From: Fischerella sp. CENA71
GTDB lineage: Bacteria > Cyanobacteriota > Cyanobacteriia > Cyanobacteriales > Nostocaceae
Direction: 5' to 3'
Length of the DNA stretch: 64,000 nt
NCBI GenBank assembly: GCA_024239075.1
Contig: JANBVI010000004.1
Coordinates: 124,001 to 188,000 of the forward strand
The notes beneath the pieces are model-generated. The model was not told the origin of the DNA. It ran no database searches and worked only from the letters and a program-made list of their open reading frames with translations. Below are positions 20,582 to 23,427 of the stretch, piece after piece. Made by a program: the position numbers and the translations under genes. The stretch's first letter is position 1; each line of letters starts with the position of its first letter.

Positions 20582-21148
20582 TTATAGTCCCAATGACTTA
20601 GCAATGCGTCCTAAAAGTTCCTGCCACCGCTTGGAAATTTCACTCTGACTAACCCTCAATTCAGCAGCTAATTGATTTTGTGTTTTACCATTAATCTTTG
20701 CTTGCCATAATTGGAGATAGTTTTGGTGTGGATAGCATTGATCAAGTTGATAAATTGCCTCTACCGCTTTGATTATTAAATCTGTACGCTCTGTTGTTTC
20801 TAAGATACTGAATTCATCAGGAATTGTATCTAACAGGCATATATCTGTTCCGGGGATGTTACAATCTAGACTTTGGCACTTCCGCAGACTTTCTTGACGA
20901 ACAAAATCAATAATTGCATATCTAGCTACAGTAGTAGCCCAGCAATAAAACTGTTCTACTCCTCCTTCACGAAATTTGGCAGATTGAAAAGCTTGAATAA
21001 TTTTTAAATGTGCATTCTGAATGGCATCTTCCCAAGATAAACCAGTACCTTTAGTGTATTTGCGAGCAATCTTTTCTAATCTCTGGCGGTAGCCTGATTG
21101 AAGTAGAACTTCGCTATAATCCGACCATGATTCATGTGTAAGTCCCAT
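20582..21148 (-). CDS. Sigma-70 family (ECF-like) RNA polymerase sigma factor
   Basis: This 188-aa protein has a region-2 segment (LSWEDAIQNAHLKIIQAF, then FYCWATTVARYAIIDFVRQE, covering the core-binding and -10 recognition helices). A C-terminal region-4 helix-turn-helix follows (KTQNQLAAELRVSQSEISKRW). There is no region 1.1 or region 3, so the size and plan match small alternative (group 4) sigma factors. No anti-sigma gene is adjacent. It is flanked by non-coding DNA, with the double-glycine peptide genes starting 1.3 kb away on the other strand. A regulatory link to them or to the glycan genes is possible but not shown. Confidence 0.85.
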   Translation of the reverse strand: MGLTHESWSDYSEVLLQSGYRQRLEKIARKYTKGTGLSWEDAIQNAHLKIIQAFQSAKFREGGVEQFYCWATTVARYAIIDFVRQESLRKCQSLDCNIPGTDICLLDTIPDEFSILETTERTDLIIKAVEAIYQLDQCYPHQNYLQLWQAKINGKTQNQLAAELRVSQSEISKRWQELLGRIAKSLGL

Positions 21149-22366
21149 ACATTATTTCCTTAATTGCTGGTGACTATTAGTTAGGTATTTAAAGGTTTTT
21201 AAAATTTTAAAAATGTCGAATAAAATTATTATTCTGGTCAGGAATGAGAGTGCAAATAAATTGAGTAAATTAATAAAAATTAAATATTAGTTCAGCTTTT
21301 TTGCTTGGCAATGAATTTATTTATCTGCTCAAAATTCAACTATTTAATTAGCTTAATAGATATATATTTGAGTTCTTTTTCACTAATAAATTGCACTATT
21401 TTTCAGTAAAAGCTAAAGGCTCTGATTCTTGTTACCAGATTCTACCTAGTAACGAGGCTCGGTCTCCCAATACAATACTACATATGCGTGAAGTTATTAG
21501 AGATCCAGGTGGGGAAGTCAAAAGTCAAAATTCACCAGTTTTAATTAAATCCCCTCGTTATGAATGGAAGAAACACTCAAAAGTAAAAATCTTGATTTTA
21601 TAAGGTTTAGGCTAGTGTTTATCCAGAGTAAATAAATTTAGATACTTGATTAAAGAACAGATTGCTTTTATTATTTTTTCTCACAAGTGAGAAATCCGAA
21701 TTTTGGCGCTCAAGCGCATACTTGTTGAATAGTAGTTACCCAACTTAAAATAATTTTTCTATTTTTTTCTAAGACTTATCAAAGAGATTCAAATCGAAAT
21801 ATCTAAAGTTTTCTTTGATTCTTATACTCTGTATTCTACAGAAACCTATAAACGCGAAGCGACTCCCCACAAATAGTAGCTTGATTATCACAAAATCTTC
21901 AGTGATGTATCTATACAGCTAGATACTGCATCAAACTAATTTTTCTGGCCTAGTTATTATTTAAAGTTTAATGACTGTCTTATCAGCATCTTCCAAAAAG
22001 TAGAGATGCAAATTATTTAAATTTTATTTCTATAGATAGAAGAATAAATTAATTTTAATGCTTGAAAAATCTTAATATATCAAATTTAATTTTTTTAAGA
22101 AAATGCTAATCTGAAAAACCTCCTTAATTGAGCTTATATGACTGCCATTCTGCTAAATACGTATTTATTTATTCTGCAAAGCCCTATTTTTTGCAATTCA
22201 TTTTGGAATATTTTGCGTTGAGCATTCGTTAAAGAAACTAAGCGCAGATCATGATTGAGTTCATTAAGTTCACAGATAGGCAACAAAGTTTGATCATGAG
22301 CAAACTTTTGATTGGCTATATACCTTGATGTGATTTGTGATGTGAAGCGATGTAGGTACTTTATGG
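21149..22366. other. Long AT-rich interval without a convincing gene
   Basis: I find no coding region I can support over ~1.2 kb. Two small perfect inverted repeats stand out: TTTCTCAC/GTGAGAAA with a 2-nt spacer (21677-21694) and AAAGTTTG/CAAACTTT with an 8-nt spacer (22285-22308). Neither is followed by a T-run, so they do not look like terminators. The second lies ~120 bp before the first peptide gene. Confidence 0.55.
22285..22308. promoter_or_regulatory. Inverted repeat upstream of the peptide cluster (possible operator)
   Basis: An 8-bp perfect inverted repeat (AAAGTTTG/CAAACTTT) has a spacer containing GATCATGA. It precedes the first double-glycine peptide gene by ~120 bp. A binding-site role is only a guess from symmetry and position. 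Confidence 0.25.
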
Positions 22367-22425
22367 CTTTGAAAAAATGCGAGTTAACTCTTCAGCTTGA
22401 TTTAGTGAATTAAGGAGAACAGAGT
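22367..22425 (+). promoter_or_regulatory. Conserved 59-nt upstream segment, copy 1
   Basis: The 59 nt directly before the first peptide ATG recur at the same length before the other two peptide genes. It includes the palindrome GAGTTAACTC, CTTCAGCTTGATT and the ribosome site AAGGAG eight bases before ATG. Conservation of a non-coding leader implies a shared promoter or 5' UTR element. Confidence 0.8.
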
Positions 22426-22662
22426 ATGCAACTTCTCGATCTCCAAAATAAGGAACTCTTGAGAGAAATCTCCACTGAAGAATTTGCTCACCTCAGCGGT
22501 GGTGGTCTTCAAACTGCTGCTGCGTATAACACGGTAGCAATTAGTACGATAGCAGGGCTAGCAGGAGGACCAGGAACCCCCGCTGCTGCTGTAAGAGATA
22601 ATACAACATTCCTGTTCGCTATTAACGCACAGACAGCGCCTGAAAGTTCCGTCAGCTCATAA
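22426..22662 (+). CDS. Double-glycine leader peptide 1 (bacteriocin-like precursor)
   Basis: This 78-aa peptide has a leader ending EEFAHLSGG|G. Ile at -12, Glu at -8, Phe at -7, Leu at -4 and Gly-Gly at -2/-1 fit the double-glycine consensus cut by C39 peptidase/ABC transporters. The mature part (~52 aa) is Ala/Thr-rich, has no cysteine and ends NTTFLFAINAQTAPESS. A strong AAGGAG site supports the start. It is nearly identical to peptide 2 apart from a short hinge (GLAGGPGTP). Function as a bacteriocin or signal is unproven. No transporter is close by, so export would need a distant system. Confidence 0.8.
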   Translation: MQLLDLQNKELLREISTEEFAHLSGGGLQTAAAYNTVAISTIAGLAGGPGTPAAAVRDNTTFLFAINAQTAPESSVSS

Positions 22663-22689
22663 TTGGCAACATGGAAACTTTTCTTTTTG

Positions 22690-22748
22690 CTTTGAAAAAA
22701 TGCGAGTTAACTCTTCAGCTTGATTCAGTTAATTAAGGAGAACAGAGT
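22690..22748 (+). promoter_or_regulatory. Conserved 59-nt upstream segment, copy 2
   Basis: Nearly identical to the segment at 22367-22425, again ending at the start codon with AAGGAG. Changes are confined to a few bases in the TTTAGTGAATT part. Confidence 0.8.
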
Positions 22749-22985
22749 ATGCAACTTCTCGATCTCGAAAATAAGGAATTCTTGAGAGAAATCTCCACAG
22801 AAGAATTTGCTCACCTCAGTGGTGGTGGTCTTCAAACTGCTGCTGCATATAACACAGTAGCAATTAGTACTATAGCAGGGCTAAGAACAGCAGGAGGCGC
22901 TGCTGCTGCTGCTGTAAGAGATAATACAACATTCCTGTTCGCTATTAACGCACAGACGGCACCTGGCAGCGCCGTCAGCCCATAA
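22749..22985 (+). CDS. Double-glycine leader peptide 2 (bacteriocin-like precursor)
   Basis: This 78-aa near-copy of peptide 1 keeps the leader through EEFAHLSGG. The core starts GLQTAAAYNTVAIST and ends NAQTAPGSAVSP. The only large difference is the hinge, here AGLRTAGGAAAAAVRDN in place of AGLAGGPGTPAAAVRDN, encoded by a GCT-rich run that can change by slippage or indel. Tandem duplication together with the 59-nt leader is clear. No cysteine or modification motif is seen. Confidence 0.8.
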   Translation: MQLLDLENKEFLREISTEEFAHLSGGGLQTAAAYNTVAISTIAGLRTAGGAAAAAVRDNTTFLFAINAQTAPGSAVSP

Positions 22986-23031
22986 TTGATGTGTTGCTTG
23001 CCATTAATTTAATTCGTCAGATGAGGTGAAT

Positions 23032-23104
23032 AACGCGCCCTTGTTCGATTTCAGTTAATTTGACCGGATACTCACCGCTTGAAATTGAGTGAAGTGGGCG
23101 CGTT
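23032..23104. other. Long interrupted hairpin between peptide genes 2 and 3
   Basis: AACGCGCCC (23032-23040) pairs perfectly with GGGCGCGTT (23096-23104). Inside it, TCGATTTCA can pair with TGAAATTGA with one mismatch. The double-stem layout could be a structured RNA or a folded DNA repeat. No T-run follows on either strand, so a simple intrinsic terminator is unlikely. Confidence 0.55.
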
Positions 23105-23149
23105 GACTAAACCTCTTAATCATAATGAAGTGATGTGCGTACCTTTTTG

Positions 23150-23208
23150 CTTTGAGAAAATGTGAGTTCGCTCTTCAGCTTGATTTAATTAATTAAGGAA
23201 AACAAAGT
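23150..23208 (+). promoter_or_regulatory. Conserved 59-nt upstream segment, copy 3
   Basis: Third copy, same length, more diverged: GAGTTCGCTC replaces GAGTTAACTC and the ribosome site reads AAGGAA. It ends at the start codon of peptide 3. Confidence 0.75.
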
Positions 23209-23427
23209 ATGCAAGTTCTCGATCTCGAAAATAAGGAACTATTTAGGGAAGTCTCTATTGAAGAATTTGCTAATGTCAATGGTGGTGGAATCATTACTGC
23301 TGCTGCGTATCTCGTAGTTTTAAGGGCAATTAATCCTAATCTGGCAATAAGTCCGGTAGCACTAAATACAGCTTTTCTTTTGGCAATTAATGCGTTGCCA
23401 GCTCCTGGCACTTACAATTCTCCATAA
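23209..23427 (+). CDS. Double-glycine leader peptide 3 (diverged bacteriocin-like precursor)
   Basis: This 72-aa peptide keeps the leader plan (LENKELFREVSIEEFANVNGG) with Gly-Gly at -2/-1. The core differs (GIITAAAYLVVLRAINPN) but retains TAAAY at the start and a FLLAINALPAPG end matching FLFAINAQTAPG of the others. No cysteine is present. It is an older member of the same tandem family. Faster change in the core than in the leader fits peptides that share one exporter. Activity is unknown. Confidence 0.78.
   Translation: MQVLDLENKELFREVSIEEFANVNGGGIITAAAYLVVLRAINPNLAISPVALNTAFLLAINALPAPGTYNSP

Follow-up and report, generated by a model that had tools for sequence, protein, structure and literature searches.

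The locus analysed here raises the question of what three short tandem genes encode, what turns them on and where their products go. The genes lie in a window, a 64,000-nt stretch of one contig (C4) of a filamentous cyanobacterium (G000) with a genome of 7.47 Mb. A sequence-only reading had described them as open reading frames with double-glycine leaders, and both their coordinates and their leaders were confirmed (Table 1); the wider interpretation that it offered was partly supported. That reading overlooked what is most telling about the locus, an ECF-type sigma factor gene together with its presumed promoter. From architecture and control combined, we consider it likely that the locus is a sigma-controlled operon of double-glycine peptides.

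Table 1. Features of the peptide locus, in window coordinates.
Feature	Position	Strand	Description
ECF-type sigma factor gene	20582..21148	-	188 aa; upstream of the peptide genes and divergent from them
R2 promoter-like site	22194..22265	+	GGAATA 22205-22210, CGTT 22227-22230, 16 nt between
R1 copy 1	22310..22425	+	within the 5′ untranslated region predicted for peptide 1; last 59 nt = repeated segment
Peptide 1	22426..22662	+	78 aa; 26-aa leader to GG; predicted core 52 aa
R1 copy 2	22677..22748	+	shorter match; before peptide 2
Peptide 2	22749..22985	+	78 aa; predicted core 52 aa
R1 copy 3	23125..23208	+	before peptide 3
Peptide 3	23209..23427	+	72 aa; predicted core 46 aa

The three leaders resembled one another closely over the 26 aa up to GG, with 24/26 identical residues between peptides 1 and 2 and 18/26 between peptide 3 and either of the others. 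In double-glycine leaders, positions -4, -7 and -12 relative to the cut are hydrophobic; when the sequences were read, all three leaders followed this rule and also had GG at -2/-1 and acidic residues. The cores of peptides 1 and 2 were identical at 43/52 positions. TAAAY, which had been placed near the start of each core, was invariant in all three peptides, as was FLxAINAxxAP, but the full tail FLxAINAxxAPG claimed earlier was found in peptides 2 and 3 only, peptide 1 ending in APE instead. Cysteine was absent from the three cores and, by reading, from the leaders, so that the exclusion of lanthionine and disulfide bonds was upheld and the core cysteines needed for the thioether rings of lanthipeptides were lacking. 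The predicted average masses of the unmodified cores, cut after GG, were 5023.5, 4992.5 and 4661.4 Da. For peptide 3, AlphaFold (five sequences) predicted two main core helices at residues 26-41 and 49-61, with a mean pLDDT of 85-88 per ten residues over 31-60; the leader was poorly predicted and the overall mean was 68.

The reading frames showed signs of selection. The dN/dS ratio was <1 between peptides 1 and 2 (0.088/0.228) and also between peptide 3 and its orthologue (0.028/0.11) in G174, the nearest relative carrying the window peptides. This result and the recurrence of the family in other genera indicate that the ORFs are more than chance. The leader had been expected to be more conserved than the core. 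That was true of the paralogues, where dN between peptides 2 and 3 was 0.141 in the leader versus 0.589 in the core, but the order was reversed between peptide 3 and its G174 orthologue (0.05 in the leader versus 0.015 in the core). About 300 bp, starting from about 22361, are common to genes 1 and 2 at high identity, which may be read as a tandem duplication. With peptide 2 as the query, the matches in its own genome were the three window ORFs only.

When the same query was used against 218 genomes of the family, 19 had a match, own genome included. Of the other 18 genomes, 17 were examined in stretches of 17-20 kb at 18 places; the remaining one (G031, locus L133) matched at E 0.045 only. 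An iterated leader profile detected 52 double-glycine peptides at E <0.01 in these loci and the window, and six additional peptides from sigma loci brought the total to 58. Eighteen peptides, picked by eye, had the core plan of the window, GG(G)-[IL]xTAAAYxTVxxAxxPxL...NTAFLFLINALxAPG. The arrays contained several paralogues each, with mostly hydrophobic cores, and none of the 58 cores as cut contained Cys; L045, L047 and L049 each have one peptide with GC replacing GG at the cut, where the Cys was counted to the leader. In an order-level sample of 388 genomes, 47 matched the core-family profile, and the 29 matches from other bacterial families lay over the leader (ending at model position 35 or earlier, in one case at 56).

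That the core falls outside known classes agreed with our searches, in which no family of Pfam (three window peptides) or NCBIfam (all eighteen) named it. A match to a well-described family, which the earlier reading had said would count against it, was sought in the same two collections and only sub-threshold scores were returned. For the window peptides the best E was 0.013 in NCBIfam and 0.075 in Pfam, neither being NHLP or N11P and none lying near a cut-off; MccV reached 14.0 bits (cut-off 27), lactobin A/cerein 7B 11.8 bits (21.5) and Lactococcin 13.2 bits (23.1). As for the proposal of an undescribed system, no searched family names the core, although the alignment of 18 members shows it to be of a recurring type, and the leader is not unique but resembles that of CTB peptides. 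CTB family bacteriocins (NF038167), which are likewise cyanobacterial, have a similar leader, of the NxLFxEVSxEExxxVxGG type common to the window peptides. With hhalign, the leader could be aligned to that of CTB peptides from the same genome (22 columns, E 0.00035, probability 37%), and this match does not extend into the window core. The window peptides gave no hit to the CTB model (cut-off 32 bits) at E 10, and 2/18 relatives matched it weakly (best E 0.0094).

Upstream of each gene, equal 59-nt segments had been reported. They are present at 22367-22425, 22690-22748 and 23150-23208, with pairwise identities of 57/59 (first and second) and 51/59 (third with either), but they are merely the start-proximal part of a larger element. 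A profile built from the DNA upstream of the genes defined this element, R1, as ~110 nt ending at the start codon. The matches to it were 108, 66 and 79 nt long for copies 1, 2 and 3, and the shortness of copy 2 can be read as a result of the tandem duplication of genes 1 and 2. A whole-genome search with strict filters found 34 R1 sites in 15/218 family genomes. All 33 sites in the examined loci lay beside a double-glycine gene (degenerate in one case), -2 to 8 nt away from its start codon, and the 34th (in G203) abuts another double-glycine peptide in a locus read by eye. RNAalifold predicted no base pair in R1, and Rfam at gathering scores gave no match between 20000 and 25500. R1 fits a cistron-proximal element. 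Two other readings of it were set aside. R1 as the target of the sigma factor was rejected as incompatible with its occurrence without the sigma gene in G133 and G203 and with its position before inner cistrons that lack R2. A conserved upstream reading frame found no support, the last 66 nt being stop-free in at most 10/29 sequences in any frame.

The motif R2, TTTTGGAATATTTTGCATYGAGTATTCGTTAAAG, first appeared in loci carrying the sigma gene. GGAA...CGT is the form of the ECF promoter consensus, and the spacing between GAATA and CGTT was 16 nt in 24/24 aligned sites. The window site was the sole strong one genome-wide (E 1.5e-16, the next being 0.33). R2 was present in 34/218 genomes, 32 of which were within the 60 that have a sigma homologue. 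Sorted by sigma class, R2 was found in 28/28 genomes with a close homologue (>=64% identity), in 4/32 with a distant one (<=53%) and in 2/158 with no homologue at E 1e-10 (G133 and G111), the R2 and sigma lists being compared by hand. Without the 19 genomes used to build the R2 model, the frequencies were 9/9 versus 2/158 (Fisher p 2.5e-13, which ignores relatedness and so overstates independence). For eight of these nine genomes, motif discovery had included a scan of their loci, though they were left out of the model, and the ninth, G173, has a weak R2 site only, at a contig end. The association of sigma and R2 is correlative; we infer that the window sigma factor uses the R2 promoter. In G173 (contigs C354 and C367), which is of the same genus, the sigma gene and the R2 site each lie ~35 nt or less from a contig end, and an assembly break may hide its peptides.

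The position of R2 relative to the peptide genes was regular. Among 59 peptide genes (the 58 and one degenerate), R1 preceded 33, R2 was within 350 nt of 17, and 15 had both. As in the window, R2 precedes the first gene of an array and R1 alone the inner genes, with the exception of L041, where R2 stands before each gene. Where both were present, the gap between them (R1 taken as 111 nt) was 30-44 nt in 12/15 genes; the other three had gaps of 144 and 118 nt and an overlapping pair (the degenerate gene). In two genes that lack R1, the distance of R2 from the ATG was 33-41 nt, which a promoter would allow. The arrays beside C39 exporters (L042, L048, L053 and L057) had neither R1 nor R2. R2 fits an operon promoter, and the three window genes would presumably share one transcript. 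A second R2, facing the opposite way towards the sigma gene, was observed in L047 (9159-9210), L049 (10771-10822) and L045 (10814-10865), and further in L051 (11198-11242) and L052 (9490-9538), with no obvious gene directly downstream; it possibly drives a small RNA or an unannotated peptide. Autoregulation of the sigma gene was considered and rejected, since R2 on the sigma strand, which lies upstream in L105 (at ~600 nt) and L049 (at ~790 nt), formed no general pattern.

The window sigma factor scored 36.6 bits with Pfam Sigma70_r2 (cut-off 24) and was the sole match of its kind in the genome (E 0.001). Its score with Sigma70_ECF was 17.1 bits, under the cut-off of 21.1, and its assignment to the ECF group relies on region 2, on its small size and on a GGAA...CGT-type promoter at the presumed target. 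The shape of the promoter suggests that the factor is ECF-like despite the sub-threshold Pfam score. This score agrees with the statement, in the excerpt of PMC11119718 consulted, that heterocyst-forming strains lack sigma factors carrying the Pfam ECF domain. Homologues of the gene were found in 12/19 peptide loci, the window included. A second gene, c3, was adjacent in 10/19 peptide loci; it is the usual neighbour of sigma and is not adjacent in the window or in L040. When a longer c3-type protein was used as the query against the own genome, only its half outside the c3 part found a match. Longer proteins in more distant loci are matched by c3 over part of their length; one of them was scanned and has DUF1822 in the remaining half. 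Beside distant sigma homologues (L115-L132 and L134), the c3 match lay within a 416-464-aa protein in 13/19 loci, and in some of these loci weak copies of the promoter motif accompany the start of a divergent gene that, by eye, looks secreted or RTX-like. An anti-sigma role for c3 is conjectural.

Double-glycine peptides, as detected by the profile within the stretch read, occurred at 15/28 close-sigma loci versus 0/19 distant-sigma loci; the 15 consist of 12 among the peptide-search loci plus L100, L107 and L108 among 16 further close-homologue loci, these 16 and the 19 distant loci having been chosen for their absence from the peptide-search results. In L108 the peptide is some 3.5 kb away from the sigma gene. 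The sigma factor seems not to be confined to double-glycine peptides, and its reach seems wider. We followed 25 of 66 R2 sites, none of them used for model building. A strict double-glycine or lasso-like precursor was found within 400 nt of 7/25 sites, compared with backgrounds of 2.1% and 0.6% at random positions and 2/545 at gene-upstream positions, although five of the seven sites precede mutually similar lasso-like genes and are hence non-independent. A looser pattern gave four more double-glycine-like peptides (L219, L223, L226 and L231) and one spurious hit (L216, site 26990). Other R2 sites precede secreted-looking or signal-peptide-like proteins (by eye, with a crude pattern), and nothing was recognised downstream of several of the 25.

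The lasso-like precursors preceded by R2 are of the YSQPEIIEIGDAV...TLG type (L111, L217, L221, L224, L227 and L235), with a looser likeness in L046. Genes for Asn synthase and PqqD/transglutaminase, which we take to be the lasso maturation set, lie beside the precursor in L046, and an Asn synthase gene does so in L111. A broader reading, which we put forward tentatively and at somewhat less than an even chance, is that the sigma lineage of heterocystous strains serves as a master switch dedicated to secreted peptides, acting via GGAATA-N16-CGTT, with the DUF1822-type neighbour c3 as its likely anti-sigma factor and release coupled to an envelope or conflict signal. The targets of this switch would be double-glycine peptides (the single strong target in the window), lasso-like precursors and secreted proteins.

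What the mature peptides do can be approached from the predicted properties of their cores. Because the cores are predicted to form hydrophobic helical hairpins, diverge and occur in paralogue arrays, a bacteriocin-like role is our first choice, modestly ahead of a matrix or signal role, and we put bacteriocin-like activity at roughly an even chance. Alternatively, the peptides could, like EbfG1-4, aggregate extracellularly as structural or adhesive components of a matrix and not be bacteriocins. A double-glycine leader with C39 export has this precedent in a cyanobacterium (PMC4997328 and PMC9981879, in the portions consulted), and mostly hydrophobic cores with several paralogues per array would also suit a matrix, but the core of peptide 3 is predicted to be helical, and we regard this alternative as unlikely, though a serious contender. 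Cell-cell signalling, within the filament or among kin, with export as proposed for the substrate of HetC, appears improbable. HetC is a C39 exporter, its substrate described as not known, and a C39 exporter acts in Nostoc differentiation (both from the consulted part of PMC10986499); dedicated sigma control would suit a signal as well, but many diverging paralogues and several core types would suit competition better.

No C39 gene was present on the window contig. C39 ABC exporters elsewhere in the genome, which the sequence-only reading had proposed to look for, were found (11 C39 matches above cut-off). In L042, L048, L053 and L057, genes for a C39-ABC protein (716-729 aa) and an HlyD protein adjoin peptides of the window core type. 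The exporter on contig C63 of the own genome was 76-79% identical to those four and its HlyD protein 56-61%. Synteny accompanied this orthology: four genes flanking the C63 exporter on its two sides, encoding a response regulator, 235-aa, 146-aa and CobU-like proteins, had matches in all four loci, and a flanking 255-aa protein had a match in 3/4. The exporter on contig C8 was 74-78% identical, and its two tested flanking genes were unmatched. The simplest reading of these comparisons is that the window peptides may be exported in trans by the C63 or the C8 exporter. In the place held by window-type peptides in those four loci, the C63 locus (L062) has five tandem double-glycine peptides of another kind beside its C39 exporter; four were scanned, three exceeding the CTB cut-off (67-74 bits) and one scoring 28.2 bits. 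The C39-ABC and HlyD genes next to the CTB peptides on C63 are thus of the class seen in those loci. On another contig of the own genome, C83 (L060, 11-733), there are three near-identical tandem GG peptides of 50-65 aa (FLKELNDDEMTVTLGGG), with a long C39 exporter ~7 kb away.

A different route would be export through an ABC exporter of the DevBCA kind, with a separate C39 enzyme doing the cleavage. In 7/19 loci, related peptides have behind them an operon of DevB-like, DevC-like and ABC ATPase genes, and in L047 the DevB protein scored 328.8 bits (TIGR02971) and the DevC protein 406 bits (TIGR01185). However, those arrays are of other core types, and DevC was present in 0/8 loci of the window core type, so we consider this route very unlikely for the window peptides. 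In the loci concerned (L045, L047, L049, L051, L054, L055 and L056), the double-glycine array and the DevB-DevC-ABC operon after it are divergent from the sigma gene, and the members scanned (L047) are without a C39 domain; the operon may encode an exporter of peptides or else a pump for immunity. Least probable of all, and hardly credible, is a decaying remnant that has lost expression: c3 is missing beside sigma and the contig carries no C39 exporter, but the frames are intact, dN/dS is <1, and promoter and sigma gene are also kept in G174.

We favour the following mechanism for the sigma-controlled operon. The three genes would form one operon of double-glycine precursor peptides, and the divergent ECF-type sigma factor would direct RNA polymerase to R2. 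The transcript would carry R1 before each cistron, where it may serve as a translation start region, a processing site or a binding site. A C39 peptidase-ABC protein would cleave each precursor after GG and, with an HlyD partner, export it; the genes of both would lie outside the locus, the pair on contig C63 being the most likely and C8 the second candidate. The mature products, of ~5.0, 5.0 and 4.7 kDa, would be hydrophobic, cysteine-free and probably unmodified helical hairpins, and would act outside the cell, most likely on the membranes of competing bacteria.

Few switches for the exported precursor peptides of cyanobacteria are known. The sigma factor and its sharply defined promoter provide a handle, in that expression of a single gene should activate the peptides. 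The R2 promoter model may also lead to additional precursor genes of different kinds. The core family, TAAAY...NTaFLFLINALxAPG, is one that Pfam and NCBIfam leave unnamed, and synteny ties these orphan peptides to a candidate exporter.

In the open-licence literature we found no report of an ECF sigma factor driving double-glycine peptides in cyanobacteria; such a sigma gene beside secreted-peptide genes appears to recur in related cyanobacteria. A survey by Wang, Fewer and Sivonen (2011, PMC3140520) counted 290 putative exported precursor peptides in 58 cyanobacterial genomes. The bacteriocin clusters of its groups I-VII have densely arrayed precursors and short C39-ABC and HlyD genes, and in the sections consulted the precursors were sought around exporter genes, whereas the window genes stand alone with sigma; its named families, NHLP, N11P, HetP and DUF37, had no such match in the window. 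The neighbourhoods of EACC2 caspases (PMC8195603) are similar in gene context, since an ECF sigma gene is associated there with a DUF1822 gene, but the excerpt seen does not mention secreted peptide genes, and the window is without an adjacent DUF1822-type gene. The CTB operon of Nodularia is described as induced by phosphate limitation (PMC9846622, excerpt). The EbfG1-4/PteB system of Synechococcus elongatus differs in that an ECF sigma factor is not mentioned in the excerpts consulted and that mature EbfG is reported there to be without homology to proteins of other cyanobacteria. As in the window, its small double-glycine precursors are encoded in a row; the C39 transporter is needed for their efficient secretion (PMC4997328), and according to the same partial texts their GG motifs are required and they take part in biofilm formation (PMC4997328; PMC9981879).
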